64,000 bases of DNA from Bacteroidetes bacterium GWC2_46_850. GTDB lineage: Bacteria; Bacteroidota; Bacteroidia; Bacteroidales; Dysgonomonadaceae. The stretch is taken from positions 186,001 through 250,000 of the forward strand of contig MENQ01000021.1 of assembly GCA_001768325.1 (NCBI GenBank), read 5' to 3'. This document shows positions 30,508 through 58,842 of the stretch, in pieces; position 1 is the stretch's first letter, and every line of letters starts with the position of its first letter. A program made the position numbers and the translations under genes. Under the pieces are notes generated by a model. It saw only the letters and a program-made list of their open reading frames with translations, made no database searches and had not been told where the DNA came from.

Positions 30508-31683
30508 ATGGAAAAAAACGCTTACTCAATTCTTTTTATCTTAAGTTTATTTCTTTTATCCTCCTGTGTCTCTGCGAATAAAGAACCTTGGTTCCAGAAT
30601 GCAGTGGAGAGCGCTTCAGCCCAGCTGACAAAGCAAGTTGAAGAAATGGGGGACAAGGTCGGATTTCCACGTTCCATAAGGGCTGATACCCTGAGGCTCG
30701 ATAATATTTATGACTGGACAAGCGGTTTTTTTCCGGGAAGCCTGTGGTATATGTACGAACTGACCGAAAACAACTTTTTCAAGGATGAGGCTGCCAAATT
30801 TACCGGCTACCTTCACGACATCAGATATTACAAGGGTACGCACGACCTGGGATTCATGATTTACTGCAGCTACGGCAATGAGCTTCGTCTTACCGGCGAT
30901 ACAGCTACCGTTCCCGTCATGATACAAACGGCAGACAACTTAATCTCAAGATTCAATGATGTGACACAAACAATCCGCTCCTGGGATTTTGGCGAATGGC
31001 AATATCCGGTGATTATTGATAACATGATGAACCTGGAACTGCTTTTCTGGGCCAGTGAATATACAAATGATCCAAAATATAGAGACATTGCCGTCAAACA
31101 TGCAAATACAACTTTGGAACATCATTTTAGAGATGATATGTCGTCGTACCACGTCATCAACTACGACACCATCACGGGCAATGTAATATCGAAAGGCACT
31201 TTTCAGGGATATTCCGACGAAAGCCATTGGGCCAGAGGCCAGGCTTGGGGGCTTTACGGATATACGGTGTGCTACCGGTATACCAAAGACGAAAAATACC
31301 TGAAAGCAGCAGAAGAAATTGCCCGGTTTATCATGGACAATGTAAAAACAGACGACCTCATCCCCTACTGGGATTACATGGCACCCGACATCCCAGATGC
31401 TCCCAGAGATGCTTCTGCGGCCGCTATTACCTGCTCAGCCCTGCTCGAGTTGAGCAAATACTCTAAGCAAAATACATCAGCGTATTACAATTATGCAGAA
31501 ACCATTTTAAAAAATCTGTCGGGCGAAAAATATCTAGCGAAAACAGGAGATAACTTTGGATTTGTCCTGATGCATTCGGTCGGACACCTGCCGGCAAACT
31601 CTGAAATAGATACGCCGATCAATTACACCGACTATTACTATCTTGAATCACTCAAACGATACAAATCCTACAGTACAAAATAA
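30508..31683 (+). CDS. GH88 unsaturated glucuronyl hydrolase lipoprotein (heparan locus)
   Basis: A 391-residue lipoprotein (LLSSC, Cys20) that hydrates the unsaturated uronate at the non-reducing end of lyase products. Family signatures: DWTSGFFPGSLWYMY, THDLGFM with catalytic Asp113, IIDNMMNLELLFWA with Asp171, DESHWARGQAWGLYGY, PYWDYMAPDIPDAPRDASAAA. It is similar to, but clearly diverged from, the GH88 at 12413. It is the first gene of the unit that continues with the PL12 lyase, and the order GH88-PL12-sulfatase is the same as I recall for the B. thetaiotaomicron heparin locus (BT4658-BT4656). Heparan disaccharides are the probable substrates. Confidence 0.94.
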   Translation: MEKNAYSILFILSLFLLSSCVSANKEPWFQNAVESASAQLTKQVEEMGDKVGFPRSIRADTLRLDNIYDWTSGFFPGSLWYMYELTENNFFKDEAAKFTGYLHDIRYYKGTHDLGFMIYCSYGNELRLTGDTATVPVMIQTADNLISRFNDVTQTIRSWDFGEWQYPVIIDNMMNLELLFWASEYTNDPKYRDIAVKHANTTLEHHFRDDMSSYHVINYDTITGNVISKGTFQGYSDESHWARGQAWGLYGYTVCYRYTKDEKYLKAAEEIARFIMDNVKTDDLIPYWDYMAPDIPDAPRDASAAAITCSALLELSKYSKQNTSAYYNYAETILKNLSGEKYLAKTGDNFGFVLMHSVGHLPANSEIDTPINYTDYYYLESLKRYKSYSTK

Positions 31684-31782: not shown

Positions 31783-33840
31783 ATGAATATAAGAACAATT
31801 GTATATCTTTTATTTTTCTGCGCCGCATTTTCTCTAAATGCCCGGGATAACAACCTAAATAAGGCCGAATCCCGTCAATCACCCCCTGAAAAAAATCAAT
31901 TGAATACACCCGGCATTCAACCGGAAGTATTTGAGATGCTTGATCTGAATAGCAAGGGATTGGAAAAAGTAAAAAGCTCTTACGAAGAAGGCAACATCAA
32001 CAGAGCAGCAGAAGCACTTTTGGAATATTACAGGAACCGGACTTTCATCAAACATCCCGATGTAGATTTGCATCGTGTTAAAATCTCGGAGGAAGAACAA
32101 AAATGGGCGGATGATGCCATGAGTCACCATTTTTTTGCTCACAAAGGATATCAACCTTCGTTTTTTTACGGCCAGGACATTAACTGGGAGTACTGGCCTG
32201 TAAAGGACAACGAGTTGAGATGGCAGCTGCACCGCCATAAATGGTGGTCACCGATGGGGAAGGCTTATCGCGTATCGGGAGATGAAAAATATGCCCGGGA
32301 ATGGGTTTTTCAATACCTCGACTGGATTAAGAAGAATCCCCTCACGGTTACGAACGATAAAGACATGGAAAACACATCCGAAGAAGAAGCCCGGAGAGTG
32401 GAAAACATGAAGTTTGCGTGGCGACCGCTCGAGGTAAGCCACCGCTTGCAGGATCAAACAGGCCAGTTTATCTATTTCCTGTCCAGCAAACATTTCACAC
32501 CCGAATTTCTCACTGTCTTCCTGACCAATTATCACAAACATGCAGAACGCATACTGGATAATTATTCGGAAAGAGGCAACCACTTGCTTTTTGAAGCACA
32601 GCGGGTAATCTATGCAGGGGCTTTCTTCCCTGAATTTAAAAATGCCCGGAAATGGCGTGAAAGCGGCATTAATGTGCTGAATAACGAAATAAAAGTACAG
32701 GTGTTTGATGATGGGTTTCAATATGAATTGGATCCTCACTATCACCTGGCCTCGATCAATATTTTTATTAAAGCACTGCAAATGGCCGATGCAAACGGAT
32801 TCAGAAAGGAGTTCCCGAAAAGCTATACCGATACGCTGGAAAAAATGATGATGGCCGTGATCGACGTTTCATTTCCCGATTATACGATGCCTTGCTTCAG
32901 CGATGCCAAAGCTGTCACGAAAAGACTAATGATCGACAACTTCAAAGATTGGAGAGTTCTTTTCCCCGACAATACCGCTATCCGGTATATGGCTTCGGAA
33001 GGGAAGGAAGGCAAGCAACCCCCTCATCTTTCAAAACGGTATGAAAATGCCGGTTTTCACATTTTAAGAAACGGGTGGAAAGAAAATGCCACGGTGATGG
33101 TGTTAAAAGCCGGTCCTCCGGCATTCTGGCACAACCAACCCGACAACGGGACTTTTGAATTGTTTGTAAAAGGACGCAACTTTTTTCCCGATGCTGGAAG
33201 TTATGTGTATGCCGGAGATGAGGAAGTGCAGAAAGAAAGAGACTGGTTCCGTCAGACACGGGTACACAACACATTAACCCTGGATGGAAAAAACATCGAA
33301 GAGACAAATTCAAAATGCCTGTTATGGGATATCAGCGACGCCAAAAATCAAATCTTGGTTACTGAAAATAAAGGCTATCCCAACCTGAAGCATCGCCGGA
33401 CAGTTTTCTTCGTGGATAATACTTTTTTTGTCATTGTGGATGATGCCATCGGTACTGCCGCAGGAGACGTCGCCATCCACTATCACCTGTCTGAAGGCAA
33501 GATGAATGTCGACAAAAAGAGATTTCGCCTGACGTCCAAATATAACGATGGGAATAACATCGTCGTGGAAGCATTCGGTCCGAAGAGCATGAAGATGGAA
33601 GAAGAAGAGAGCTGGGTATCCTACGCTTACCGGCAAAAAAACAAAAGAATCGGCGTTGCATATCATGCGAACAAGCAGTCGGACAGCACAACTTCTTTTA
33701 TCACCGTGATATACCCCATCTCCTCCAAGGCCCCCCGTATTTCCGCAAAATATCTGAATGGAGATGACAACGCAAGCAGCGTAAAAGTAGAACTCACAGT
33801 CGACAACAATAAATATAACCTCCATGCAAACTGGAATTAA
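31783..33840 (+). CDS. PL12-family heparinase III-like heparan sulfate lyase
   Basis: A 685-residue secreted lyase that cuts low-sulfated regions of heparan sulfate by beta-elimination. It has a signal peptide ending near SLNA. The N-terminal helical domain has GLEKV, ALLEYYRNR, DINWEYWPVKDNELRWQLHR and YAREWVFQYLDW, which align from memory nearly word for word with Pedobacter heparinus heparinase III (659 residues). Candidate catalytic positions are the Asn in RGNHLLFEAQ, the Tyr in DPHYHLA and the His in FWHNQPDNGTFELF. The C-terminal beta domain includes RVHNTLTLDGKN. The last 17 bases overlap the next sulfatase gene, so the two are translationally linked. Confidence 0.95.
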   Translation: MNIRTIVYLLFFCAAFSLNARDNNLNKAESRQSPPEKNQLNTPGIQPEVFEMLDLNSKGLEKVKSSYEEGNINRAAEALLEYYRNRTFIKHPDVDLHRVKISEEEQKWADDAMSHHFFAHKGYQPSFFYGQDINWEYWPVKDNELRWQLHRHKWWSPMGKAYRVSGDEKYAREWVFQYLDWIKKNPLTVTNDKDMENTSEEEARRVENMKFAWRPLEVSHRLQDQTGQFIYFLSSKHFTPEFLTVFLTNYHKHAERILDNYSERGNHLLFEAQRVIYAGAFFPEFKNARKWRESGINVLNNEIKVQVFDDGFQYELDPHYHLASINIFIKALQMADANGFRKEFPKSYTDTLEKMMMAVIDVSFPDYTMPCFSDAKAVTKRLMIDNFKDWRVLFPDNTAIRYMASEGKEGKQPPHLSKRYENAGFHILRNGWKENATVMVLKAGPPAFWHNQPDNGTFELFVKGRNFFPDAGSYVYAGDEEVQKERDWFRQTRVHNTLTLDGKNIEETNSKCLLWDISDAKNQILVTENKGYPNLKHRRTVFFVDNTFFVIVDDAIGTAAGDVAIHYHLSEGKMNVDKKRFRLTSKYNDGNNIVVEAFGPKSMKMEEEESWVSYAYRQKNKRIGVAYHANKQSDSTTSFITVIYPISSKAPRISAKYLNGDDNASSVKVELTVDNNKYNLHANWN

Positions 33841-35182
33841 ATATTTTAGCACACTGGTAACATACTCGTCGCTGAGTATGTTACCTTTTCAGGGAATAGC
33901 ACAAAAGCAACCCAACATCATCCTCATCATGACCGATCAGCAAACCGCGAACGCGATGAGCAACAGAGGCAATATGAATGTGCATACCCCGGCAATGGAT
34001 GAGTTGGCATCAGATGGCGTCGTGTTTACAAGAACCTATTGCTCCTTCCCTTTAAGCGGACCCTCGCGTGCAAGCATCATGACGGGAAAGATGCCCAGCG
34101 AAATAGAGGTGCTGGAGAACGATGACCCGCTGCCGGAAGATGAGAAAAAAAACTCTATCGGCTTTAAAATGCAACAGGCCGGATATGATTGTCTCTATGC
34201 CGGAAAATGGCATATTCCAACGGTAGAGATCCCGGACAAGGAATTCGGATTTAAAAAAATAAGCGGGATGAACGATCCCGAGATGGCTTACCATATTGAA
34301 AAAGAACTCTCTGCAAAAAGAAACAAACCGCTGTTTTTAGTTGCCTCATACCTCAATCCCCACGAAATATGCGAATACGCACGCTCACAAACATTGCATT
34401 ATGGAGAAATACCCATCCCGAAAGAAGCGGTTTTTCCCGAGTTACCTCCTAATTTTCAAGCAACAGAAGGCCTCTCCGAGCTGCTGATGCATCACAAAAA
34501 GATGTCACCCAAGCTGTATCCGACAGAAAACTATTCCGGGCAGGATTGGAAAAATTATTTATATGCCTATTACAGACTGGTCGAACGGGTCGATTCTCAC
34601 ATCGGAGAATTAATCAAGATACTGAAGAAGAACAACCTGTATGACAACTCCGTCATCATCTTCACCAGCGACCACGGTGATGGTGTCGCAGCCCATAAGT
34701 GGAACCAAAAGCGGGCCTTGTTTGAGGAGTCCATTCAGGTGCCCCTGATTATCAAACCTTCAAAGAGGGATAAAATTTCTGTAAACCGCGACCTTCACGG
34801 TCTGGTGAATATCGGGATCGATCTCTACCCCACAATATGCGATTACGCGAACGCCCCGATTTCGGAAGAACTAAATGGAGTGACCCTGAAAGGTGTCCTG
34901 GAAGGAACAAGGAAGCCACATCAGAGTATTTTTATAGAAACCCACTTTGATGCCATAAACGGCAGATCTTGGTGTGTGATAAAAGATCAGTACAAATATG
35001 TCTTTTATCGTTTTTTTAAAAATCGCGAACAACTGTTCGATCTCTCTGCTGACAAAGGTGAAACAACCAACTTAATGCGAGACAACCGCTACAAGCATAT
35101 CTACGACGAAATGAAAACAGAATTACTGATGCATGCCCGGAGAGTGAACGACAAAATGTTGATCAAAGATCTGAATTTCTGA
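33824..35182 (+). CDS. S1-family sulfatase, overlaps PL12 gene
   Basis: A 452-residue sulfatase that starts inside the 3' end of the PL12 gene (17-bp overlap). It has a signal peptide rather than a lipobox (to about GIAQ). A later in-frame ATG at 33878 would destroy the signal, so the upstream start is preferred. Signatures are IMTDQQTANAMS, the formylglycine site SGPSR with Ser78 (codon 34055), GKWHIP, NPHEICEYA and FTSDHGDG. Its position suggests action on a heparan sulfate ester, either 2-O on the unsaturated uronate or 6-O on glucosamine. I cannot choose between them from sequence alone. Confidence 0.9.
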   Translation: MQTGIKYFSTLVTYSSLSMLPFQGIAQKQPNIILIMTDQQTANAMSNRGNMNVHTPAMDELASDGVVFTRTYCSFPLSGPSRASIMTGKMPSEIEVLENDDPLPEDEKKNSIGFKMQQAGYDCLYAGKWHIPTVEIPDKEFGFKKISGMNDPEMAYHIEKELSAKRNKPLFLVASYLNPHEICEYARSQTLHYGEIPIPKEAVFPELPPNFQATEGLSELLMHHKKMSPKLYPTENYSGQDWKNYLYAYYRLVERVDSHIGELIKILKKNNLYDNSVIIFTSDHGDGVAAHKWNQKRALFEESIQVPLIIKPSKRDKISVNRDLHGLVNIGIDLYPTICDYANAPISEELNGVTLKGVLEGTRKPHQSIFIETHFDAINGRSWCVIKDQYKYVFYRFFKNREQLFDLSADKGETTNLMRDNRYKHIYDEMKTELLMHARRVNDKMLIKDLNF

Positions 35183-35297: not shown

Positions 35298-36878
35298 ATG
35301 ACTATCTCGGATACAACAAAAATATTTAAATATACCAGCATCTCTTTGCTTGCTGTTACAACGTTGTCTTCATGCAAAATGGAAGAAAACCGGAAGCCTA
35401 ACATCATTTTTATCATGACCGACGATCATGCAACAAATGCTATCTCATGCTACGGAAGCAAGCTGATACAGACACCGAATATTGACCGCCTGGCACAAGA
35501 AGGTATAAGATTCGAAAACAACTATGCAGTAAATGCCCTCTCAGGACCGTCCAGAGCCTGTATCCTTACGGGGAAATTCAGTCATGTCAACGGCTTTAAA
35601 GATAACAATAGCGTATTTAACGGCGATCAGCAGACTTTTCCAAAGATCCTTCGTGAAAATGGCTATCAAACGGCAATGATTGGCAAATGGCATTTGATCA
35701 CAGAGCCGCAAGGTTTCGACTACTGGTGTATCCTCAGTGGACAGCATGAACAAGGGGACTATTATAGCCCTGATTTTATAGAAAATGGTAACCATATAAC
35801 CGAAAGCGGTTATGTGACAGACATTATTACCGACAAGGTGATTAACTTCCTAGATAATAAAGAGAAAGATAAGCCTTTCTGCATAATGTATCACCAAAAG
35901 GCTCCGCACAGAAACTGGATGCCGGCGCCACGCCATCTGGGTATCTTCAATGATACAATGTTTCCCGAACCCGATAATCTGTTCGATGATTATAGCCATA
36001 GAGGCAGTGCGGCAAAGGAACAGGATATGTCAATTGAACATACTCTCCGCAATGACTGGGATTTAAAACTGCTTACACGCCAGGAATTACTCAACGATAC
36101 AACTAACAGACTATACAGCGTCTATCGACGTATGCCACAAGAGGTCCAGCAGAAATGGGATTCGGTATATGCCGGCCGCATAGCCGAATATAAAAGTGGG
36201 GAACTAAAAGGGGAAGAGTTGGTGAGGTGGAAGTACCAACAATATATGCGCGACTATCTGGCGACTGTTCTCTCAGTAGATGAAAATATCGGAAGGTTAC
36301 TGGCTTATCTTGAGGAAAAGGGAGAGTTGGATAATACCATGATTGTTTATACATCCGACCAGGGATTCTTTTTAGGCGAACATGGCTGGTTTGACAAACG
36401 CTTTATGTATGAAGAGTCGCAACGTATGCCTTTGGTGATCCGTTATCCGAAATCGATCAAGGCAGAAAGTGTATCCCAGGCACTTTCCATGAACGTGGAT
36501 TTTGCCCCTACTTTCCTGGATATGGCGGGGATAGATATCCCGGAAGAGATGCAAGGGGTATCGCTTAAACCGGTATTGACGAACGCGGGGGAAATTCCTC
36601 CCAACTGGAGAGAAGCGGTATACTACCACTTCTATGAGTATCCGGGGGAACACTCGGTAAAACGTCATTACGGAATACGTACGGCAGATTTCAAACTGAT
36701 TCATTTCTATAACGATATCGACGAATGGGAAATGTACGACCTGAAAAGAGATCCGAAAGAGATGGTCAATATATTCGACAATCCGGAATATAGCGACAAG
36801 AAGAATGAACTGATGCAGCTGCTAAAAAAAGCCCGGACAGAATATAAGGATGACGAACAGACCCTGTCTATGAGATGA
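35298..36878 (+). CDS. S1-family sulfatase lipoprotein, probable glucosamine-6-O-sulfatase type
   Basis: A 526-residue lipoprotein (LSSC, Cys26, then KMEEN). Sulfatase features: IMTDDHATNAISCYG, formylglycine motif SGPSR with Ser82 (codon 35541, TCA), GKWHL followed by GFDYW, KAPHRNW, YTSDQGFFLGEHGWFDKRFMYEES and a C-terminal MYDLKRDPKEM. The GFDYW and GEHGWFDKR regions resemble, from memory, N-acetylglucosamine-6-sulfatases such as BT4656, which is also next to a PL12 gene. It follows the previous sulfatase by 115 nt; I see neither a terminator nor a clear promoter in that gap. Confidence 0.92.
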   Translation: MTISDTTKIFKYTSISLLAVTTLSSCKMEENRKPNIIFIMTDDHATNAISCYGSKLIQTPNIDRLAQEGIRFENNYAVNALSGPSRACILTGKFSHVNGFKDNNSVFNGDQQTFPKILRENGYQTAMIGKWHLITEPQGFDYWCILSGQHEQGDYYSPDFIENGNHITESGYVTDIITDKVINFLDNKEKDKPFCIMYHQKAPHRNWMPAPRHLGIFNDTMFPEPDNLFDDYSHRGSAAKEQDMSIEHTLRNDWDLKLLTRQELLNDTTNRLYSVYRRMPQEVQQKWDSVYAGRIAEYKSGELKGEELVRWKYQQYMRDYLATVLSVDENIGRLLAYLEEKGELDNTMIVYTSDQGFFLGEHGWFDKRFMYEESQRMPLVIRYPKSIKAESVSQALSMNVDFAPTFLDMAGIDIPEEMQGVSLKPVLTNAGEIPPNWREAVYYHFYEYPGEHSVKRHYGIRTADFKLIHFYNDIDEWEMYDLKRDPKEMVNIFDNPEYSDKKNELMQLLKKARTEYKDDEQTLSMR

Positions 36879-36920: not shown

Positions 36921-39900
36921 ATGCAGAACAACCTTTTACTAACAATATATGGGATCTCGTTACCGCTTTTTTCCGGCAACGAGGTTCTACGTGCAGACAA
37001 CGACCAACGGCCCAACATCTTGTGCATTGTTTGCGAAGACATTAGCCCATACTTAGGTTGTTATGGCGATCCGGTAGCAAGAACGCCCAACCTGGACAAT
37101 TTTTCAAAGGAAGCCATCCGCTATACCGGAATGTACTCGACCATGGGGGTGTCTGCTCCCAGCAGGGCAGCGTTAATCACCGGCATGTACCCGACATCCA
37201 TTGGTGCAAACAACATGCGCACCACACAAAAAAAATCCAAGCCGGAAGGAATTACGCCGTATGAAGTGGTATTGCCGGAGGGCGTGAAGTGCTTCACGGA
37301 ATATCTGCGTGAGGCAGGCTATTATTGCACCAACAATGCCAAGACGGACTATCAGTTCGCTTCTCCCCTTACGGCATGGGATGAGCAGGGTGTGACAGCA
37401 CATTGGAAAAATGCTCCGGAGAGCATGCCTTTTTTCTCCATCTTTAACCTGAATGTCACCCACGAGTTTCAAATAATGGAACGATCCGGCCTTCACTTAA
37501 GTGTAAACCCGAACGACATTATACTGCCACCCTACTATCCGGACGACCCGGTTATCAGACACGATATGGCGGTGATGTACAGCAACATCACCGAGATGGA
37601 CAAACAGTTTCAAGTGCTGATCGATGAGCTTGAAAATACGGATAAGTGGGACAACACCATTGTGATCTTCTATTCCGATAATGGAGGTCCCCTACCCCGA
37701 CAAAAAAGAGAAATTTACGAATCCGGGACGCTTGTTCCCTTTATGATACGGTTTCCTGACAGATACAAGGGCGGAACCACCGACACAGATTTGCACATGT
37801 TTATTGATATCCCGGCCACAATTTTGTCCCTGGCGGGAGTACCCGTTCCGGATTACATGCACGGCAGTCCGTTTTTGGGAAAACAAAAAGGAGAAAAGCG
37901 CAAATATGTCTTTGGTGCACGGGACAGGCTGGATACATTTTACGACAAGCAGGGCTGTGTGCGGGATACCCGTTTTCGTTACATCCGCAATTACATGCCC
38001 GCTCAATCGGATTACCTTCCAATAATATCCCGTTCCCCCATGCCTTTGATGAGGCGACTGGAAGAACTTCATACGGCAGGGAAATTGAACCATGACCAGG
38101 AAAAATGGTTTCAGTCTCCGCGCCCGGAAGCTGAATTGTACGATCTGTCGACAGATCCGCATGAACTGAACAATTTGGCAAATAACCCCAGGTACACGGC
38201 AAAAATCCGGGAACTAAGCCTTGCTTTCGATCAGTGGGTTACGGATTACAATGGTCACTGGAAACTGACCGAAAAAGAACTAATTAACAGATTTTGGCCG
38301 GGCGGTGTGCAACCTGTGGTCAATCAGCCTGTAGTCTCCGTGAAAAACGGGGTGGCAACGATTACGTGCTCTACACCCGGTGCCTCAATAGCTTATCAGA
38401 TAAACGGCAAAGGGATCAGCGAAGACCACTGGTATCTTTACACGAAACCTTTCCCGGTAAAGGAAAACGACAAAATAACCACAATCGGGACAAGGGCAGG
38501 ATACAAAAACAGCTCGCTCCAGGCAGAGGCGGATGAGTTGCTGATGGAATGGGTGGAGAGCCTGTTATCTTACCAGGTAGCCCACGCAGATCCCTCGCTC
38601 GACGGAGGCCTGATGTGTCCGGCGTGCGTACGGATACACGGCAGGTGCGGCGATGCGGTACTTCCGTTGATGTATGCCGCCGAAAAGACAAGCAACGCCA
38701 AGTACATCCAGGCCGCGAAAAGATTGATGAAATGGATGGAAAATATGCGTCAACCCGATGGTTCCTGGATGAACGACGTCAACGTATCCGACTGGAACGG
38801 TACCACCGTCTTTGCTGCCATTGCATTGTATGAAGCCCTGCATCATTATGGTTATTTACTGGACGATTCTACCCGGAATGTCTGGGACCAGCAACTGTTG
38901 TCGGCAGGGGAGTTTATTTTTCACAACGACTTTATATACAGCCGACGCCGGGAAGGAATGCGAAATATGAATGTCAACTATTCGGCATCGGCAACCTATG
39001 CGCTTTATGCTATCGGGAAAAAATTCAACAGGAATGATTTCGTCCAAAAAGCAAACCAGATCGCATCGGATTTAAAAGGTTATTTTACTGAAAATGACTT
39101 TTTCCTGTTCGGAGAAGGCCCGGAGATATGGGAAAAGACAAAAAACGGATGCTTTCCGGTAGACCTCGGATACAATGTGGAGGAGTCGCTCCCCAACATG
39201 ATGTTTTATGCTGAAATGGCAGGCGATCACGAATTAAAAGAGCTGCTGCGCAAGTCCATGGACACCCATTTGGCATTCATGCTACCCGATGGCGCGTGGG
39301 ATAACAGCTGGGGCACACGCAGCTTTAAATGGACCTACTGGGGAGGACGTACCAGCGATGGCTTTATGGGGGGCTACGCAATCCCCGATGCAGGTAAGCA
39401 CCCGGAATATTATGAAGCCATAAGGCGGAACATATCGCTATTGAAACAGTTCACCCACAACGGATTGCTCTACGGCGGCATGCATTATAAAACGGCCGGC
39501 ATGAAGCCATGCATCCATCACACTTTCGGACATGCCAAAGCACTGGCATCATTTCTGGCTTTGCCGGTAGCCACACCTCCCCGTGTGTTACTACCCCGGG
39601 ATAAAGAGTATGGCGTAAAATATTACAAGGATATCAACACCTGGCTCGTGGCGGAAGACGACTGGCGGGCTACCATCACGGGATTCGACGCCGAATACAA
39701 GGTAAAGGGTACGCATCCCATGGGAGGGGCACTCTCCATGTTATGGCATAAGAAAACAGGGCCGGTATTTGCCGCTACAATGAACAAGTTTTCCATGATT
39801 GAAGCCCCCAACATGCAAAGTTATTTGCAGGAAAATAAAATGCCGGGAACTCCCCGGATAGAGCTTCAGGAAAACGGTGACATGTACAGTAACCTTGATG

Positions 39901-40331
39901 ACTTAGATGCACTGATCAATTATCACAAGAAAGGAGATGCCCACATTTTCCACACCCACACTCATCTGGTAAACAGCGAACAAGCCTATTCGTCATTGGG
40001 TAACAGTGTCGTAGAAATCACGTATACATTTGATGCGGGAAACATTCTCATCCGTTGCAAAGGGGACAAGTCTCTTACCGGAAAAGGAATAAAACTGGTC
40101 CTCCCTGTCATCTCAGACCCTGAGGAAAAAGTACGGAGAAATGGAAATGAGCTGTCAATAAAAAAACAAAATTGCTCCTTAATCCTAAAAAGCAACTCGA
40201 TGCTTCAGATCGCTCCGACCGATCCAAATGGGCGGATTTTTAATCCTGTCCCCGGTTTTAGTTTTATTCCGGTTGTCATTGAGCCCGGTCCCAACGGCGA
40301 AATGGAGGTAACGATCGCAGTGGAAAAATGA
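36921..40331 (+). CDS. Fusion: SGSH-like sulfatase + hexosaminidase-C-like domain + large (alpha/alpha)-type module
   Basis: A 1136-residue secreted protein, more than twice the usual sulfatase length. Residues 1-440: signal peptide, VCEDISPYLGCYGD, formylglycine motif SAPSR (Ser78, codon 37152), FYSDNGG, and a C-terminal LYDLSTDPHELNNLA that resembles human heparan N-sulfatase (SGSH). Residues about 463-525 look like the small chitobiase/hexosaminidase C-terminal domain (ATITCSTPGASIAYQINGKG). Residues about 536-880 are helical with repeated hairpins (CPACVRIHGRCGD, QPDGSWMND, WNGTTVFAAIALYEALHHYG, YNVEESLPNMMFYAEMAGD), and 880-1136 are mostly beta. Toroid plus beta-sandwich is the architecture of many lyases, but I do not recognize the family. 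There is no frameshift or stop between parts. It overlaps the next gene by 4 bp (ATGA). Confidence 0.88.
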   Translation: MQNNLLLTIYGISLPLFSGNEVLRADNDQRPNILCIVCEDISPYLGCYGDPVARTPNLDNFSKEAIRYTGMYSTMGVSAPSRAALITGMYPTSIGANNMRTTQKKSKPEGITPYEVVLPEGVKCFTEYLREAGYYCTNNAKTDYQFASPLTAWDEQGVTAHWKNAPESMPFFSIFNLNVTHEFQIMERSGLHLSVNPNDIILPPYYPDDPVIRHDMAVMYSNITEMDKQFQVLIDELENTDKWDNTIVIFYSDNGGPLPRQKREIYESGTLVPFMIRFPDRYKGGTTDTDLHMFIDIPATILSLAGVPVPDYMHGSPFLGKQKGEKRKYVFGARDRLDTFYDKQGCVRDTRFRYIRNYMPAQSDYLPIISRSPMPLMRRLEELHTAGKLNHDQEKWFQSPRPEAELYDLSTDPHELNNLANNPRYTAKIRELSLAFDQWVTDYNGHWKLTEKELINRFWPGGVQPVVNQPVVSVKNGVATITCSTPGASIAYQINGKGISEDHWYLYTKPFPVKENDKITTIGTRAGYKNSSLQAEADELLMEWVESLLSYQVAHADPSLDGGLMCPACVRIHGRCGDAVLPLMYAAEKTSNAKYIQAAKRLMKWMENMRQPDGSWMNDVNVSDWNGTTVFAAIALYEALHHYGYLLDDSTRNVWDQQLLSAGEFIFHNDFIYSRRREGMRNMNVNYSASATYALYAIGKKFNRNDFVQKANQIASDLKGYFTENDFFLFGEGPEIWEKTKNGCFPVDLGYNVEESLPNMMFYAEMAGDHELKELLRKSMDTHLAFMLPDGAWDNSWGTRSFKWTYWGGRTSDGFMGGYAIPDAGKHPEYYEAIRRNISLLKQFTHNGLLYGGMHYKTAGMKPCIHHTFGHAKALASFLALPVATPPRVLLPRDKEYGVKYYKDINTWLVAEDDWRATITGFDAEYKVKGTHPMGGALSMLWHKKTGPVFAATMNKFSMIEAPNMQSYLQENKMPGTPRIELQENGDMYSNLDDLDALINYHKKGDAHIFHTHTHLVNSEQAYSSLGNSVVEITYTFDAGNILIRCKGDKSLTGKGIKLVLPVISDPEEKVRRNGNELSIKKQNCSLILKSNSMLQIAPTDPNGRIFNPVPGFSFIPVVIEPGPNGEMEVTIAVEK

Positions 40332-42301
40332 AAAAAAATAATCATATGAAAAATATCCTGCTATTTACAACCGCTGCCCTGTCGGCAACTTCCATGCCGA
40401 CAAAAGCAGCAAATGCCGACGAAAAACCCAATATCGTTTGGCTGACCTTTGAGGATACAAGCTGGTATGAATTTGGCTGTTACGGAAACGATCAGGTTAA
40501 AACGCCCTGCATCGATTCTCTGGCAAGCAAAGGCGTACAATTTATGAATGCCTGGTCTGTGGCACCGCAAAGTTCGCCTGCACGCTCATCGCTCATCACC
40601 GGGTGTTATGCCACCACGTACGGCATGGACCTCCATCCCCGGCCATTTGATACACCAAAAGATATTTTCTTCCCGCAGTATCTCCGGGAAAATGGTTATT
40701 TCTGTACCAATAACAGCAAAACCCATTACAACACGACCGTCGACAATACGGTTTGTTGGGATGAATGCAACGATAGCGCCTCATACAACAGTTCCCAAAG
40801 AGGTAAAAATCAGCCATTCTTCGCTGTATTTAACACCGTAACTTCACACATGGGAAGGATACGCACGTTTCATACGGACGGGCGTCGCGACTACACAAAG
40901 GAAGGGATATATCCGGGACAATTACGGTTACCACCCCATGTACCCGACACATACGAGGTCAGGGCGGACTATGCCGGTCACCTGGAAGCCGTTCAGGACG
41001 TGGACAAATGGGTGGAAATATTCATGAACGACCTGAAAGAAAAAGGACTGGACGACAATACGATCCTGTTTGTTTTTAGCGACCACGGCGGATGCCTCCC
41101 ACGGGGAAAAGGATATCTGTACGAAACGGGATTAAGGGTGCCCTTGATTGTTCATGTACCGAAAAAGTGGCAACATCTTTTGTCCTCGAAACCCGGCACG
41201 AAAGATCAATCGCTGGTTAGCTTCATCGACCTGGGACCCTCCGTTTTAAGTCTTGCCGGCATCAATCCGCCAGAACACATGCAGGGAAGGGCGGTGATGG
41301 GGAAATATGCTGTGGATCAGCCGATACCAATGCAGTTTGCCTTTGCCTCCAACCAACTTCATCACTTTATGCCCGTTCGCGCAGCAACCGACGGGAGGTT
41401 TAAATATATCCGGAGCTATATCCCCTACAAGCAATTTGCATTGCGCAACTATTATCAATGGGGAATGCCCTCAAATAAAGCCTGGGATAAACTCATGCTG
41501 AAAGAGTGCAACGATCAGGCTGCATGGAGACAGCCTTATCAGCATCACCCGGCAGAGATGTTATTCGATTTGCAGTCGGACCCTTTCGAACTGAATAATC
41601 TTGCCACAGATCCGGAATACGAAAGCGTGCTCCGGGCCTTCCGCGGGGCTGTCTCTGAAAATATTCGCCGGACAAGAGATCTGGGCCTCTTTATCCCTTC
41701 CTCAAGAGAAGGGGTCAACCTTTATGACAAAGTAATTCAGGAAAATTATCCTTTGGAAGAACTTTACTCGATGGCGGAACTTGCAGGAACAGCGGAAAAG
41801 AAGGATCTCCCTTCGTTACTAAAAGCCCTGAATAGCAGCGAACCCGATATTCGTTACTGGGCGGCAGTGGGATTTGGACATCTTGCGTCAAAAGGGAATC
41901 TTGACAAGGCTCCCGGGGAACTTTTAAAATTACTGGAAGATGCCAATCCTTACGTGGCCTGCGAGGCGGCATATGCTGTTTCTTATACAGAGGACGCAGA
42001 AAAAGGAGTAAAAAGGCTTGTCTTTCCCTCCAATGAAGAAGATAGGAAAATTGGATATGCTATGCTGGAATCCCTATCACTGGACCACACCAAGCGTCAT
42101 TTGATCCAGCCATACATAAGCGAATTAACAGAAAAGGCTGCTTCACTCCCGGCAAAGGAAAATGAAGATAGCGGATTAATGGCCCGTGGCATTCTTGTCA
42201 ATATGGGATCTCTGAATATTGATGATCAGCATGGAGCCAGTTCGTATGAGCAGGGACTAAAACTGAACAGAGGCAGACGCCCGATGAAGCCAACGCCTTA
42301 A
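40328..42301 (+). CDS. SGSH-like sulfatase with C-terminal HEAT-like repeats
   Basis: A 657-residue secreted sulfatase coupled by ATGA overlap to the fusion gene. A second ATG at 40346 gives an equally good signal peptide (MKNILLFTTAALSATSMPTKA). The catalytic part has TFEDTSWYEFGCYGN, formylglycine site SSPAR (first Ser, codon 40571), FSDHGGCLPRGKG and LFDLQSDPFELNNLATDP, again like heparan N-sulfatases. After about residue 490 come helical repeats (LPSLLKALNSSEPDIRYWAA, LLKLLEDANPYVACEAAYAV) of the HEAT type, about 110 residues, then a basic tail (RGRRPMKP). Two SGSH-like enzymes side by side may differ in substrate length. N-desulfation of glucosamine is the inferred role. Confidence 0.88.
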   Translation: MKKNNHMKNILLFTTAALSATSMPTKAANADEKPNIVWLTFEDTSWYEFGCYGNDQVKTPCIDSLASKGVQFMNAWSVAPQSSPARSSLITGCYATTYGMDLHPRPFDTPKDIFFPQYLRENGYFCTNNSKTHYNTTVDNTVCWDECNDSASYNSSQRGKNQPFFAVFNTVTSHMGRIRTFHTDGRRDYTKEGIYPGQLRLPPHVPDTYEVRADYAGHLEAVQDVDKWVEIFMNDLKEKGLDDNTILFVFSDHGGCLPRGKGYLYETGLRVPLIVHVPKKWQHLLSSKPGTKDQSLVSFIDLGPSVLSLAGINPPEHMQGRAVMGKYAVDQPIPMQFAFASNQLHHFMPVRAATDGRFKYIRSYIPYKQFALRNYYQWGMPSNKAWDKLMLKECNDQAAWRQPYQHHPAEMLFDLQSDPFELNNLATDPEYESVLRAFRGAVSENIRRTRDLGLFIPSSREGVNLYDKVIQENYPLEELYSMAELAGTAEKKDLPSLLKALNSSEPDIRYWAAVGFGHLASKGNLDKAPGELLKLLEDANPYVACEAAYAVSYTEDAEKGVKRLVFPSNEEDRKIGYAMLESLSLDHTKRHLIQPYISELTEKAASLPAKENEDSGLMARGILVNMGSLNIDDQHGASSYEQGLKLNRGRRPMKPTP

Positions 42302-42337: not shown

Positions 42338-43966
42338 ATGAACAGAAGAAAATTTATCAAGAATACCGGATGGACATTTGTCGGTTTAGCCGCGACAGGA
42401 AGCCTGTTACAAGGTTGTCAACCAAAATCAAAGGAGGCGAAAAAAATAATGCCTTCACCTCACAGCCTGAAGCTCTATTGGGGTGATATACACAACCATT
42501 GCAACCTCACCTACGGGCACGGAGATATGAGGGATGCGTTTGAAGCGGCGAGGGAGCAACTCGATTTTGTTTCGGTCACCCCTCACGCAATGTGGGAGGA
42601 TATTCCCGGCAGAAATGATTTGCGCCTGCAATGGGTTGTCGATTATCACACCAAATCATTTGATGCCTTGCGTGCAGGAAAATGGGACGAATACGTGAAA
42701 ATGACGAACGAATACAACAAGGAAAATGAGTTTCTTACTTTTTTGAGCTACGAATGTCACGACATGGCACATGGCGATCACGTGGCATTGTTGTATGATC
42801 TGGAAGGAACAATGGTGGATCCTTCCAATGCAATGCAGCTGAAAGCAAGGCTAAAAGGGCAGAAAGCATTTGTCACGCCCCACCATATGGGATATCAGAC
42901 CGGCTTCCGGGGATATAACTGGAAGACATTTCAGGAAGATGGACAGACGCCTTTCGTGGAAATGTACTCCCGCCACGGGCTGGCTGAAAGTGATGACGGC
43001 GACTACAACTATCTGCACGACATGGGACCCAGGCAATGGGAAGGAACCGTGTTGTACGGATTGGAGCAAGGGTACAAATTTGGAATTATCGGCTCCACGG
43101 ATCAACATGCCGGCTACCCCGGAAGCTATGGCGACGGACGGGTAATGGCCCTCGCACCCTCCCTCAAACGTGATGATATCTGGCATGCTTTACAGAATAG
43201 AAATGTGGGATGTGCCACGGGCGACAAGATAAAGATTGATTTTCGGATCAACGACGCAATCATGGGCGAAGTGATCAGGGGTAACAGCAGAAGAATTTAC
43301 CTGAATGTAGAGGGGGAAAATTCGGTCGATTACGTGGACATCATCAAGAACGGCAAATGCATTGCACGCATGAACGGACCACTTATTCCCGAAGTGCCGC
43401 AAGAAGATCCGGTCAGATGTAAAATAAAAGTGGAATTCGGTTGGAACCGCGAAGAAGAATATGTACATTGGAACGGTAAACTATCCATTGACAAAGGAAT
43501 GATAAACCAGATAACACCCTGTTTCAGAGGGGCGGCATACACGTCCCCCCAACCCGGCGAGAAGGCGTTTGAGACCCGGGTAAACCGGATCCTATCCTCC
43601 TCCGAAAAGGATGTGGAACTGGATATGTATAGTGCAAAAAATCCCAACACCACAACACCGTCCATGCAAGGTGTCATCCTTGATCTGACTATCCCCAAAG
43701 AGGGAAATTTAACGGCAGATTTCAACGGAAAACGTTTCACGCATCCTATCGGAGAATTACTTCACGGTTCCAAGGCTCATTTTATGATAGGCTGGCTGAG
43801 TGAAGCAGTTTCATTCAACAGAGCCATTCCTGAAAGCGCCTTTCAGGTGGAACATTATATGGAAGATACCGTTGCCGAAAGGGAGGTAGACTACTACTAT
43901 GTGCGCGTAAGACAAAAAAACCAGCAATGGGCATGGAGCTCTCCTATCTGGGTAGAAAAAATATAA
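42338..43966 (+). CDS. PHP-domain (DUF3604-like) metallohydrolase, Tat lipoprotein
   Basis: A 542-residue protein with a twin-arginine signal (MNRRKFIKNTGW) that ends in a lipobox (LLQGC, Cys27), so it should be exported folded and lipid-anchored. The PHP metal-site motifs are present in order: WGDIHNH (Asp50, His52, His54), VTPHAMW, SYECHD, VTPHHMG and GSTDQHAG (Asp255, His257). A C-terminal beta-rich region of about 250 residues follows. PHP enzymes hydrolyse phosphoesters or related bonds with two or three metals. Export in folded form fits a metal cofactor loaded in the cytoplasm. No substrate is known to me for this group. Its place between sulfatases and a sugar kinase suggests a modification of heparan oligosaccharides. 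Confidence 0.82.
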   Translation: MNRRKFIKNTGWTFVGLAATGSLLQGCQPKSKEAKKIMPSPHSLKLYWGDIHNHCNLTYGHGDMRDAFEAAREQLDFVSVTPHAMWEDIPGRNDLRLQWVVDYHTKSFDALRAGKWDEYVKMTNEYNKENEFLTFLSYECHDMAHGDHVALLYDLEGTMVDPSNAMQLKARLKGQKAFVTPHHMGYQTGFRGYNWKTFQEDGQTPFVEMYSRHGLAESDDGDYNYLHDMGPRQWEGTVLYGLEQGYKFGIIGSTDQHAGYPGSYGDGRVMALAPSLKRDDIWHALQNRNVGCATGDKIKIDFRINDAIMGEVIRGNSRRIYLNVEGENSVDYVDIIKNGKCIARMNGPLIPEVPQEDPVRCKIKVEFGWNREEEYVHWNGKLSIDKGMINQITPCFRGAAYTSPQPGEKAFETRVNRILSSSEKDVELDMYSAKNPNTTTPSMQGVILDLTIPKEGNLTADFNGKRFTHPIGELLHGSKAHFMIGWLSEAVSFNRAIPESAFQVEHYMEDTVAEREVDYYYVRVRQKNQQWAWSSPIWVEKI

Positions 43967-43979: not shown

Positions 43980-44927
43980 ATGAAAGCAGCAATTGGTCTT
44001 GATTTGGGAGGGACTTCCATCAAGTATGCACTGGTTGACGAGGAAGGACAGATAATGCACCAGGGCATACGTCCTTCTTCGGCGACTGTCTCGGCAGAAG
44101 CTGTCGTTGACCAGCTCTGCAAATGCATTGAAGATATAGAAAGGTTCTTGTCCTCAAAGGCAGGGATCGATCTGAAGGGGATTGGCATTGGTACCCCGGG
44201 CATCATTGACGAAACAAACAGGATTGTCCTGGGTGGAGCCGAAAATATACAGGGATGGGAAAATATCCCTCTTGCCAGGATCATCGAAGAGAAAACAAAG
44301 CTTCATACGGTAGTGGCAAATGATGCAAATGCGATGGGATTGGGCGAAACAATGTTCGGTGCCGGAAGGAATTTCAAACACATCGTGTTTCTAACCGTGG
44401 GAACAGGCATTGGAGGCGCGGTGATTATCGATGGAAAGCTCTTTAACGGATATGCCAACAGAGGGACGGAACTGGGGCACGTTCCCTTTATTGCCAACGG
44501 TATACCCTGTGCCTGTGGCTCTGTAGGATGCCTGGAAGCATATGCCTCCACGTCGGCACTGGTACGTTTTTTTATGAACGAGTGCATTGAACAGGGCATA
44601 AAAACGGAAGAAGCGAACATCAACGGAAAGTATATTGTGGATCTGTACCTTGCAGGAGATCCCCTGGCAGAGAAGTGCCTGAACAACCATTGCGATTATC
44701 TTGGCCATGGGATTGCAGGCCTCATTAACACCTTCAGCCCGCAGCTTGTTGTGGTTGGCGGAGGACTGCCGGAAGCCGGCGATTTTTATATGGAAAAAGT
44801 GCGAAAGGCCGCTTTCCGGTATGCGATGAAAGATTGTGCCCAAAATACAGAAATTACGGCAGCCCAGCTGGGAAATATGGCCGGAACAATTGGCGCAGCC
44901 TCACTTGCATTTTCACTCCTTGATTGA
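43980..44927 (+). CDS. ROK-family sugar kinase, probable glucosamine/N-acetylglucosamine kinase
   Basis: A 315-residue cytoplasmic protein with the ROK pattern: LDLGGTSIKYALVD (phosphate-binding loop), VANDANAMGLGE (catalytic Asp), TVGTGIGGAVI, ELGHVP and the zinc motif CACGSVGCLEAYAS. It has no N-terminal DNA-binding domain, so it is a kinase rather than a ROK repressor. It starts 13 nt after the PHP gene and ends 20 nt before the PL15-like gene. The amino sugar left after heparan breakdown needs phosphorylation, so GlcN or GlcNAc is the likely substrate. From memory, a ROK gene also sits beside the PL15 gene of the B. thetaiotaomicron heparin locus (BT4654). Confidence 0.9.
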   Translation: MKAAIGLDLGGTSIKYALVDEEGQIMHQGIRPSSATVSAEAVVDQLCKCIEDIERFLSSKAGIDLKGIGIGTPGIIDETNRIVLGGAENIQGWENIPLARIIEEKTKLHTVVANDANAMGLGETMFGAGRNFKHIVFLTVGTGIGGAVIIDGKLFNGYANRGTELGHVPFIANGIPCACGSVGCLEAYASTSALVRFFMNECIEQGIKTEEANINGKYIVDLYLAGDPLAEKCLNNHCDYLGHGIAGLINTFSPQLVVVGGGLPEAGDFYMEKVRKAAFRYAMKDCAQNTEITAAQLGNMAGTIGAASLAFSLLD

Positions 44928-44947
44928 ATCATACAAAAACTGATCGT

Positions 44948-47560
44948 ATGAATTATTTTCATTGTCTTATTTTGTGCTTTCTCTTCACTTTGCCATCCTA
45001 TTCACAGGGATGTATCCTTAAAACAGGAAAAGAAACCCTTATGCACGAGGTGAGGGCAACACCCTCACCACTGAATGGCGAACACATTCAGTTAAATCCG
45101 CCCCGGCTTGTGTGGCCGGACAAATATCCTCATTTGGGTGCTGTTTTGGATGGCGTGGAAAGCACCGAGTCAAAACCAGATGTGACTTATCGGATACGAA
45201 TCTCGCAAGATCCGAAATTTACCCACAACGTCATACAGGGCGAAAGAAAGTGGGCCTTTTTTAATCCGTTCCAACAGTTGGATAAGGGCAAATGGTACTG
45301 GCAGTACGCATTTGTAGATGCAGACGGCTCCGAGGAGTGGTCACCGATACTTGAATTTCGTGTCGGCGATGGAACAAAAACATTCAACCCGCCTTCCTTC
45401 AATGAAGTTTTGGAGAAACTGCCTGCATACCATCCCCGGATTTTACTGGATAAGAAGAAATGGGAAAATATCATCGACAGAAACAAGGATAACAAAGAAA
45501 CAGACTCCTATTTTAAAATATCCAACAGATGTCTGTCAAACCCGATAAAACCATTAAACGAAGAGATTGATACGGCACAATTGGTTCATCTAGCCAATGC
45601 CGTACAGTACAAATCAGTGATAATCAGAGAAAGCAGAAAAATTGTAGACCGGGAGGAAAAAAACATCGAATCCCTCATCCGGGTATACTTACTGACCAAG
45701 GACCGTACCTATTATGAGGAGGCAATAAACCGGTTGTCGGAAGTAATTTCCTGGAAGCAAAGTCCCTATTTTGCGGGTGATTTTAATTTATCGACCATCT
45801 TGTCACTATGTACCTCAGCTTATGATGCATTCTACGATATCCTTACCCTGGAAGAGCGGAAGTTATTACTGGGTGAAATAGGGACGTTGGGTGACTTCTT
45901 TTATCATGAGTATGTCAATCATCTGGAAAACAGAATTGCCGACAATCATGTATGGCAGATGACCTTCCGGATACTGACAATGGCTGCCTTTGCCACCGTA
46001 GGGGAAATACCCGAGGCAACGCTTTGGGCTGATTATTGTTACAACCTCTGGGTCTCCCGGTTCCCGGGGCTGAACAACGATGGCGGCTGGCATAACGGTG
46101 ACTCCTACTTTCACGTCAATATCCGCACCCTGATCGAGGTACCGGCTTTTTATTCGAGAATCACCGGGTTTGACTTTTTCAAAGATCCCTGGTACAATAA
46201 CAATGTCGGCTATGTGATTTACAGCCAGCCTCCTTTCTCGAAATCAGCAGGACAGGGGAATGCACATGAAAATATGAAGACACCCAGTGGAGCGAGGGTC
46301 GGCTATGCAGATGCACTGGCCAGAGAGTGCCAAAGTCCGTGGGCAGCCGCCTATGTTGCCCAAATCAAAGAAAAGGAACCGGATATTTTAACCGGCTCGT
46401 TCGAATCAAAACCGGCAGACCTCACCTGGTACAGATGCACGACCACCAAAGCATATCCTGCAGACAGCAGAACACTGGCAGATATGCCGCTTTCCGGAGT
46501 TTTCCCGGCAACAGGTCTGGCAATCATGCATACCTCAATAGCTGAACCACAGTCCAACGCCATGCTTTCATTCAGATCAAGCCCTTATGGAAGCACGTCA
46601 CATGCGATGGCAAACCAGAACAGCTTCAATACGTTTTACGGAGGAAAAGCTATCTTCTACAGCAGTGGCTACAGAACGGGCTTTACCGACCCGCACAGCA
46701 TGTATTCCTACCGAAACACACGCGCTCACAACACCATTTTAATCAACGGAATGGGACAAAAGATCGGGACCGAAGGCTATGGATGGATACCAAGATATTA
46801 CGAAGGCAGTTCAATCTCTTATGTGCTGGGAGACGCGTCAAACGCCTATGGTAAGATCTCTTCACCGTTATGGCTGAAGAGAGCAGGACTCTCGGAGATT
46901 GAGTTCACTCCGGAAAAAGGATGGGATGAGAACAAGCTTGAAGTGTTCCGGCGACACATTATTCAGCTGGGAAAATCAGGAATATATGTTTTATACGATG
47001 AATTGGAAGCTGCTGAACCGGTAAACTGGAGTTTTTTACTTCATACCACGGAAGAACCCATGTCGGTAAATAATTCCGGGGATTATGTGACAGTGACAGG
47101 TACCAATAGCATAGGAGGGAGATCTGTCGCACACATTTTTTGTTCGGAAAAAATAGAAACATCCCTGACCGATCAGTTTTTCAGCGAACCGGAGAACTGG
47201 AAAAATGTAACTGACCAATCAGGTAAAGCTGTTATATATCCCAATCACTACCATTTTACGGCAGAAACAGCAAAAAGTAAAACAGCTATATTCCTGACAA
47301 TCATTGACACACACGGCAAAGAAAGGAAAGACTACGACATCGAGATCGGGGGTGAAAGCATAAAAATGGCTGAATGGATTATAGAATTCAACCTGATCAA
47401 TGCAGGAAGTGGGTTTATATCTGTTGTGAATCGTAAAACGGGAGACTCTCTGCAGTATGACAAGCGAAAGAACAACGGGATCACCGTTATCAAAGATATC
47501 GTCAATGGGAATAAATTTGAAATAAAACTTTGCGATGTAATCCCAGATCTTGAAATTTAA
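44948..47560 (+). CDS. Heparinase II/III-like lyase with DUF4962 domain (PL15-like, second copy)
   Basis: An 870-residue secreted lyase, paralogue of 18566. A TTG at 44924 also opens the frame, overlapping the ROK stop, but the ATG at 44948 starts directly at the signal peptide (MNYFHCLILCFLFTLPSYSQ). Shared landmarks are LMHEVRATPSPLN, RESRKIVDREEKNIESL, DNHVWQMTFRILTMAAFA, GGWHNGDSYFH, FRSSPYGSTSHAMANQNSF and RAHNTILINGMGQKIGTEGY. It resembles the B. thetaiotaomicron PL15 exo-lyase BT4652 more closely, as I recall it, than the first copy does. It is the last gene of the heparan unit; the kduI promoter begins right after its stop. Conversion of heparan oligosaccharides to unsaturated disaccharides is the inferred role. 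Confidence 0.84.
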   Translation: MNYFHCLILCFLFTLPSYSQGCILKTGKETLMHEVRATPSPLNGEHIQLNPPRLVWPDKYPHLGAVLDGVESTESKPDVTYRIRISQDPKFTHNVIQGERKWAFFNPFQQLDKGKWYWQYAFVDADGSEEWSPILEFRVGDGTKTFNPPSFNEVLEKLPAYHPRILLDKKKWENIIDRNKDNKETDSYFKISNRCLSNPIKPLNEEIDTAQLVHLANAVQYKSVIIRESRKIVDREEKNIESLIRVYLLTKDRTYYEEAINRLSEVISWKQSPYFAGDFNLSTILSLCTSAYDAFYDILTLEERKLLLGEIGTLGDFFYHEYVNHLENRIADNHVWQMTFRILTMAAFATVGEIPEATLWADYCYNLWVSRFPGLNNDGGWHNGDSYFHVNIRTLIEVPAFYSRITGFDFFKDPWYNNNVGYVIYSQPPFSKSAGQGNAHENMKTPSGARVGYADALARECQSPWAAAYVAQIKEKEPDILTGSFESKPADLTWYRCTTTKAYPADSRTLADMPLSGVFPATGLAIMHTSIAEPQSNAMLSFRSSPYGSTSHAMANQNSFNTFYGGKAIFYSSGYRTGFTDPHSMYSYRNTRAHNTILINGMGQKIGTEGYGWIPRYYEGSSISYVLGDASNAYGKISSPLWLKRAGLSEIEFTPEKGWDENKLEVFRRHIIQLGKSGIYVLYDELEAAEPVNWSFLLHTTEEPMSVNNSGDYVTVTGTNSIGGRSVAHIFCSEKIETSLTDQFFSEPENWKNVTDQSGKAVIYPNHYHFTAETAKSKTAIFLTIIDTHGKERKDYDIEIGGESIKMAEWIIEFNLINAGSGFISVVNRKTGDSLQYDKRKNNGITVIKDIVNGNKFEIKLCDVIPDLEI

Positions 47561-48579: not shown

Positions 48580-48592
48580 AAAAAAATATAAA

Positions 48593-49384: not shown

Positions 49385-49392
49385 CCTGATTG

Positions 49393-49408
49393 GATAATTC
49401 GATAATTT
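49393..49408 (+). repeat. Short AT-rich repeat GATAATTCGATAATTT
   Basis: Two tandem 8-mers follow the kduD stop. A related four-unit array lies after kdgK (51723-51754). It looks like a dispersed intergenic micro-repeat; no function can be read from it. Confidence 0.45.
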
Positions 49409-49470
49409 AGAGATTTGCAGATGAACCAATCATCAACCCTTCGTATAAATCAATCAATAAATCAGACTAT

Positions 49471-50625: not shown

Positions 50626-50637
50626 AACAAGCAGTAC

Positions 50638-50667: not shown

Positions 50668-50689
50668 ATTTATCATTACGAAAACAAAT

Positions 50690-51754: not shown

Positions 51755-51796
51755 AATAACGCAAAATATATTAATTAGCTGATTGCTAAAAAAAAT

Positions 51797-58824: not shown

Positions 58825-58842
58825 TTTTAATAAGACAAAAAG

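Follow-up and report, generated by a model that had tools for sequence, protein, structure and literature searches.

A sulfatase joined to a PL37-type module in a heparan-type gene cluster of the Bacteroidetes: a candidate two-step enzyme for saturated chain ends

A 64,000-nucleotide stretch of DNA from Bacteroidetes bacterium GWC2_46_850 (contig MENQ01000021.1, positions 186,001 to 250,000; called here the window, in whose own numbering all coordinates are given) contains a single open frame at 36921-40331 on the plus strand, which begins with ATG and encodes 1136 amino acids. It joins an S1_8-type sulfatase to a module that we assign to the PL37 / P29_PDnc type, and it lies in a cluster of genes for the breakdown of heparan-type glycosaminoglycans. 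In the reading that we prefer, and to which we give a probability of roughly 0.55, the sulfatase would desulfate the non-reducing end of the chain and the PL37 domain would dehydrate the terminal uronate, making it available to an unsaturated uronyl hydrolase of family GH88.

The uninterrupted frame, described already in a sequence-only reading of this DNA, recurs in another genome of the same genus (DGZP01000038.1, Proteiniphilum sp. UBA4977; L002/L010, L and G numbers being our own handles for loci and genomes), where the same 1136-codon frame is whole at 94.6% identity. The ratio of nonsynonymous to synonymous substitution rates (Ka/Ks) between the two copies varies along the protein: the sulfatase has 0.066, the small tail that follows it 0.33, and the module 0.10 in residues 536-905 and 0.20 in residues 906-1136. 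It is 0.116 over the whole fusion and similar for the neighbouring sulfatase gene. Because the frame is intact in the second genome and Ka/Ks is low, the fusion gene is genuine, and both of its halves are under purifying selection. One could suspect that an error of sequencing or assembly had joined two genes, as the module is a separate protein in the other genomes in which we found it. Nevertheless, we rule such an artefact out as practically inconceivable, since a copy diverged by about 5% keeps the frame and synonymous rates are well above nonsynonymous ones on both sides of the junction.

The protein starts with a hydrophobic stretch recognized by eye (residues 1-25; 36921-36995, plus strand, like all features given below unless stated otherwise), which is a probable export signal. 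Residues 26-462 (36996-38306) match the Pfam families Sulfatase (PF00884, 8.8e-33) and SGSH_C (1.1e-15), and the nearest solved sulfatases are S1_8A, S1_8B and S1_8C, names used in work on lambda-carrageenan, with values from 5.7e-70 (S1_8A) to 8.9e-55, the next molecule being human SGSH at 2.8e-28. The formylglycine motif of sulfatases follows the rule (C/S)-x-P-x-R and is present as S78-A-P-S-R, that is, in its Ser version, whereas the homologues from Persicobacter, L090 and L095 have Cys at the catalytic position. Metal-site acids are found at Glu39-Asp40 and Asp253-Asn254, and these residues, together with Ser78, Lys141 and His181, presumably play the active-site roles known from S1 sulfatases, to judge by analogy. 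By its sequence, then, this half is a Ser-type S1_8 sulfatase, and the sequence-only reading was right to describe it as complete, Ser-type and akin to heparan N-sulfatase. The same cannot be said of the small beta domain (residues 463-535, 38307-38525), which had been taken for an additional joined unit of hexosaminidase-C type. Its resemblance to CHB_HEX_C_1 is weak (18.4 bits against PF13290, under the gathering score of 22), and we reject it as an added domain. Since the separate homologous sulfatases of Persicobacter (L022), L090 and L095 end in the same stretch, it is not an independent fused domain but the sulfatase's own C-terminal tail, common to standalone members of the S1_8 clade.

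The remaining module (residues 536-1136, 38526-40328), which divides at approximately residue 905 into two parts, could not be assigned to any family in the sequence-only reading. This assessment was correct as far as general searches are concerned. Residues 536-1136 had no acceptable match to a Pfam or NCBIfam model, and searches of the PDB with the module alone, with a 10-row profile and with a 36-row profile returned no convincing chain; the hits to toroid proteins, of which the best had 0.0062 and 0.025, covered short stretches. The module can nonetheless be placed through individual residues. P29_PDnc of Formosa agariphila, an ulvan oligosaccharide dehydratase, was probed by the substitutions D248N, E254Q, E255Q, D269N, D290N, R300E, K303I and Y306F, of which only those of D248, the arginine and K303 are reported as inactive (PMC8511951). 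The inactive arginine variant is printed once as R300E and once as R230E in the available text of that paper; we read it as residue 300, because the legend to the mechanism (Asp242/Arg294/Lys297) has the same spacing. All eight probed residues are present in the module at identical spacing, as D748, E754, E755, D769, D790, R800, K803 and Y806, the essential Asp, Arg and Lys falling at +0, +52 and +55, and the next best position for this pattern within the module matches three of the eight. The catalytic segment (39162-39329) would provide Asp748 as the proposed base, Arg800 for the carboxylate and Lys803 as the proposed acid, the equivalents of D248, R300 and K303. None of these three varies among the 51 sequences that were aligned (the window is one of them), and the other probed sites are kept in 49 (E254), 44 (E255), 45 (D269), 50 (D290) and, for the dispensable Y306, 41 of them. 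The alignment was made without the second fusion copy (L002/L010), L066, L017 (at a contig end), the fragments L047, L048 and L123, and the hits L115-L119.

Gene order points in the same direction. With mechanically assigned starts, the Asp falls precisely on residue 248 in 11 of 39 relatives. Two such loci were tested (L090 and L095), and in both of them a PL28 ulvan lyase is the next large frame, beyond which lie genes resembling S1_8 sulfatases and GH105. The ulvan cluster of F. agariphila comprises P29_PDnc, P30_PL28, P32_S1_8 and P33_GH105 (PMC8511951); L090 has a GH106 gene between PL28 and S1_8, where F. agariphila reportedly has P31_GH39. The F. agariphila protein CDF79930 (BN863_22180), which adjoins the ulvan lyase BN863_22190 (PMC6168547), is in our reading P29_PDnc itself, because the latter is said to have been reported earlier as an ulvan lyase, and putative dehydratases were predicted with family PL37 (both PMC8511951). 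As the residues and their spacing, the Asp248 numbering and the PL28/S1_8/GH105 synteny all match, we file the module under the PL37 / P29_PDnc type, an assignment based on published residue numbers, length and synteny rather than on a direct alignment. The former suggestion of a second catalytic family, one whose chemistry is beta-elimination, was right, and the profile searches with residues 536-1136 found no match to a well-described non-catalytic family. The sequence patterns GSWMND and YNVEESLPNM, singled out earlier, are indeed present in the module.

Several other similarities were considered and set aside. Matches of single relatives of the module to Pec_lyase (2e-5), LcrV (9e-4) and LANC in Pfam were taken as chance or generic repeats. 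The heparinase-type families PL8, PL12 and PL15 were rejected on sequence, with an hhalign probability of 0.2% each when the 36-row profile was compared with the members in the window (one sequence per family), although a shared fold is conceivable; the same profile gave 22% over a 39-column stretch with the GH88 protein of the window. Dermatan-sulfate epimerase appeared in the PDB searches with module profiles at 0.32 and 0.54 and was not used as evidence. There was no GH154 name among the PDB profile matches, the presence of GH154 structures in the PDB copy searched being unconfirmed. An AlphaFold model of the module from two sequences (the window copy and L002) had a mean predicted local distance difference test score (pLDDT) of 34, too low to confirm the toroid plus beta-sandwich fold suggested in the sequence-only reading or the fold described for P29_PDnc. 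A separate observation concerns L016, L018, L019, L020, L045, L046 and L141, which constitute a second, deeply split PL37-like subfamily with about 25-29% identity to the window module. It keeps the Asp, Arg and Lys triad, but in the rows examined E255 is replaced by Met, and HHTF by YPTF; it may have another substrate.

Whole-genome searches covered samples from within the phylum of the window, and a contig scan across all phyla covered close relatives only. The module occurs in scattered genomes of the phylum, and it is fused only in the genome of the window and in G451, which we take to be the second genome described above (open frames of 1142 and 1137 codons). One search over 101 genomes of the family showed the fusion in 2. 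All other listed matches at E of 1e-15 or below are in open frames that range from 260 to 665 codons, the shortest of which are fragments, and a complete standalone module has about 640 residues. Weak partial matches (L009, L053, L071 and, in one search, those beyond G000 and G064, at 5.9e-11 or worse) were not counted as module genes. A scan of viral contigs with two patterns picked out 8 stretches that fitted one or the other, none of them a relative. The arrangement most informative for the origin of the fusion is that on a Persicobacter plasmid, where the module is a 641-residue frame and a sulfatase gene (matching residues 5-540 at 41%) ends 29 nucleotides before it (residues 539-1134, 39%), on the same strand and in the same order. 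In the fused protein, the sulfatase tail passes at its end directly into the beginning of the conserved part of PL37. Because Persicobacter encodes both halves as neighbours 29 bases apart, we regard the gene as a product of gene fusion, which by this comparison arose from two neighbouring genes. In a tree of 51 modules, the Persicobacter and PL28-linked rows fall into a clade of 29 (support 100/99) to which the module of the window does not belong; the latter stands on a long branch with no resolved sister. The nearest modules by identity, L136 (44%) and L137 (43%), belong to the same order.

Building on the families, residues, fusion and setting described here, we infer the activities of both domains, their order and their substrate as follows. 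The product of the two fused neighbouring genes would be an exo-acting, probably periplasmic enzyme that works in two steps. After conversion of Ser78 to formylglycine, the S1_8 domain would remove a carbon-2 sulfate at the non-reducing end of a heparan or heparin oligosaccharide, either the 2-O-sulfate of a terminal uronate or the N-sulfate of a terminal glucosamine; this activity is predicted from the family and the intact active-site motif. In the second step, Asp748 would abstract the C5 proton of a terminal saturated glucuronate (GlcA) or iduronate (IdoA) whose carboxylate is held by Arg800, and Lys803 would protonate the leaving O4 hydroxyl, so that water is lost and a 4,5-unsaturated uronate is formed. 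Here the residue match and its conservation suggest the chemistry, and action on a heparan-type substrate is supposed by analogy. Finally, the GH88 enzyme encoded about 5 kb upstream could hydrolyse the unsaturated residue, and enzymes of the KduI/KduD type could pass the product to central metabolism. The net effect would be the peeling off of saturated ends left by the heparinases of the locus.

The identity of the sulfate removed in the first step deserves separate consideration. Xylose can be regarded as glucuronate minus C6. Published activities of S1_8 enzymes are the desulfation of N-sulfated glucosamine (GlcNS) by Phep_2826 of Pedobacter heparinus (PMC10154612) and that of P32_S1_8 of the ulvan pathway, an exo-2-sulfo-xylose sulfatase (PMC9096561), to which xylose desulfation was likewise assigned elsewhere (PMC12858550). 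As both activities are at carbon 2, and given the above relation of the two sugars, a 2-O-sulfouronate would be the natural guess for the substrate, an N-sulfate being the alternative guess by analogy; the subfamily may also be broader than these two activities, given the use of the S1_8A-C names in the lambda-carrageenan work. It is conceivable, if rather doubtful, that both sites act in turn on the same sugar, 2-O-desulfation of a saturated IdoA2S or GlcA2S being immediately followed by its dehydration to the 4,5-unsaturated form for GH88. A variant equally compatible with desulfation and chain-end dehydration, which we hold as a tentative possibility, is that the S1_8 domain takes the N-sulfate off a terminal glucosamine (or GlcNS) and the PL37 domain acts in the next cycle on the uronate beneath. 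The activity of Phep_2826 and the heparan type of the locus speak for it. However, the closest separate relative found for this half is the Persicobacter sulfatase, whose own relatives L081, L087, L090, L091 and L095 (66-68%) include two in PL28 ulvan lyase loci, the setting of the xylose-specific P32_S1_8, and another N-sulfatase candidate, at 42338-43966, holds the position of BT4655 in the heparin locus of Bacteroides thetaiotaomicron.

The proposed cooperation with GH88 can be examined in other genomes. A GH88 or GH105 gene lies within 20 kb of at least 27 of 48 PL37 genes, as compared with 2.1 expected at random positions, a control that ignores the general clustering of carbohydrate genes and is applied to related rows. 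By hand count, 22 of the 27 near cases match at 1e-30 or better among the matches listed; the weaker ones by Pfam are G000, the second gene of G1144, the first genes of G1214 and G1386, and G1602, and the G000 neighbour is nonetheless GH88 by its PDB match. In the window, 7.3 kb separate the module from the GH88 match. The count was made without the genes of G451, the Persicobacter plasmid, G833, G840, G837, G1632, G1597, G1666, G1457, G1314, G1473 and G1385, and of two hits below the cut-off one (G000) was dropped and one (G031) kept. Besides the limits of this control and the indirect filing of the module, some observations weigh against the proposed function. Among the matches listed, 21 of the 48 PL37 genes have no GH88 or GH105 gene within 20 kb. 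No recognised sulfatase occurs in the 20 kb around the nearest relatives L136, L137 and L126, nor in the 20 kb read around two close relatives that do have GH88/GH105 genes, G1602 at 9 kb (a weak match) and G1788 at 10.7 kb (a strong one). Moreover, no alpha-glucosaminidase is present among the annotated genes of the window (frames 21346, 26435 and 55540 lay outside the Pfam run), which bears on the source of saturated uronate ends.

To these must be added two literature reports that favour another interpretation, in which the module is a genuine lyase of polysaccharides that cuts heparan or chondroitin, in endo or exo fashion, after desulfation. CDF79930 was reported to cleave ulvan endolytically and to degrade heparan sulfate and chondroitin sulfate (PMC6168547), and PL37 members such as BACEGG_00231 are called active on glycosaminoglycans in a paper citing others (PMC6994673). 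PL37 is also named as a lyase family, and elimination of a sugar and elimination of water share their chemistry. On the other hand, P29_PDnc with an N- or a C-terminal tag was tried on ulvan of seven origins and showed no lyase activity, but it dehydrated a disaccharide, according to the available text of PMC8511951, and the locus already has two heparinases. We find a lyase rather unlikely and favour desulfation with chain-end dehydration, because P29_PDnc eliminates water from the terminal uronate with no lyase activity detected in that study. The sequence-only reading had coupled desulfation with cleavage of the chain; the sulfatase and the beta-elimination family remain from that proposal, with dehydration fitting better than cleavage. 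An inactive module that only binds the chain end might be imagined as well, but conservation of the three essential residues and the Ka/Ks of 0.10 in the part that holds them make it very improbable.

The neighbouring genes agree with the glycosaminoglycan setting supposed at the outset, which the GH88, heparinase and sulfatase genes of the locus bear out. Upstream of the fusion are the GH88 unsaturated uronyl hydrolase, the expected remover of the dehydratase product (30508-31683; PDB 3wiw, 5.9e-122), a heparinase III that we take to be PL12 (31783-33840; PDB 5jmd, 8.2e-258), and two S1 sulfatases identified by Pfam (33824-35182 and 35298-36878). The second of these has 526 residues as compared with 599 in the second genome (L002:2134-3933), where residues 171-263 of the longer copy face only about 25 residues of the window copy. 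Downstream, the fusion is followed by a second S1_8-like sulfatase with a HEAT-like tail (40328-42301, mechanical start; S1_8C, 3.9e-70), a CehA/McbA-like metallohydrolase (42338-43966; PF12228 DUF3604 by Pfam, below the NCBIfam cut-off), a ROK sugar kinase (43980-44927) and a heparinase II/III-like lyase, presumably of PL15 type (44924-47560; PDB 6lja, E=0, and Pfam). Genes of uronate catabolism follow at 47737-52471, namely KduI, a KduD-like short-chain dehydrogenase/reductase, DUF4861 (the BT_3233 family), a PfkB kinase and a 2-keto-3-deoxy-6-phosphogluconate aldolase. Leftward in the window are two PL8 lyases, GH88 and sulfatases, and the region may handle chondroitin-type chains too. The heparin locus of B. 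thetaiotaomicron comprises BT4652-PL15, the BT4654 kinase, the BT4655 N-sulfatase, the BT4656 6-O-sulfatase, BT4657-PL12 and BT4658-GH88 (PMC9067506). By kind and position of the genes, the window corresponds to it in mirrored order, with extra sulfatases that include the fusion. The metallohydrolase at 42338-43966 stands in the place of BT4655, which is biochemically uncharacterised, and is a candidate for that unclassified sulfatase family.

Some observations made along the way concern other loci. A GH88/105 gene adjoining a PL37 gene at G1086:C18:138012-139018 has in-frame stops and is apparently decayed. A PL8 lyase, a sulfatase and a standalone PL37 gene stand in a row at L077:4109-10952, a second glycosaminoglycan-like setting for PL37. 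At L099:11316-14003, on the minus strand, an 895-residue sulfatase-lyase fusion (Sulfatase 9e-41, Alginate_lyase PF05426 8.5e-83) is encoded beside a standalone PL37 gene. In the window itself, positions 55540-63071 hold a large SusC-like frame (by BLAST), SusD, an SGBP_B_XBD glycan-binding protein and GH5, possibly a separate locus of xyloglucan type.

Both halves of the protein are known, and their union in one protein within a heparan-type cluster looks new; no described S1_8-PL37 fusion was found in the open literature by title and start of abstract, most subscription papers being outside this search. If both sites worked on the same sugar, the protein would be, to our knowledge, the first sulfatase-dehydratase dedicated to glycosaminoglycans, and it would unlock the saturated ends of heparan sulfate chains without the help of a lyase. 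Whether the founding member is a lyase or a dehydratase is the point on which the two papers devoted to it conflict, and a fusion in a heparan-type locus narrows this question, as its halves should act successively on one chain end. Our proposal, if true, would show how saturated heparan sulfate ends feed GH88, and the route by dehydratase and uronyl hydrolase described for chondroitin (GH154) would gain a second sequence family. A pair of enzymes known from ulvan breakdown would then also serve the breakdown of animal polysaccharides, and the protein would offer a one-protein tool to trim heparan oligosaccharides.

Comparison with known systems helps to define what is particular to this protein. 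P29_PDnc / CDF79930 shares with it a module of about 600 residues and all eight probed residues at equal spacing; however, it is a separate protein of an ulvan cluster, whereas the window module lacks its own signal region and comes after a sulfatase domain, within a locus of heparan type. P32_S1_8 (ulvan) and Phep_2826 (heparin) belong to the same sulfatase subfamily, as judged by the nearest solved structures, the fusion differing in being joined to a second enzyme. A sulfatase fused to the next-acting non-reducing-end enzyme is likewise found in P36_S1_25/GH78 of F. agariphila, although the partner there is a rhamnosidase, not a dehydratase, and the sulfatase subfamily is different (PMC8511951). 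The same job as that proposed here, priming of saturated terminal GlcA for GH88 in glycosaminoglycan (chondroitin) breakdown, is reported for BcGDH / GH154, a glucuronate dehydratase of Bacteroides caccae; this enzyme is a protein of its own, is described in the available text as having no sequence relation to P29_PDnc, and is proposed to use two tyrosines instead of Asp and Lys (PMC12269599). A further parallel is the heparin/heparan sulfate locus of B. cellulosilyticus WH2, which likewise has a PL37 gene of uncharacterised activity together with extra sulfatases (PMC9067506).

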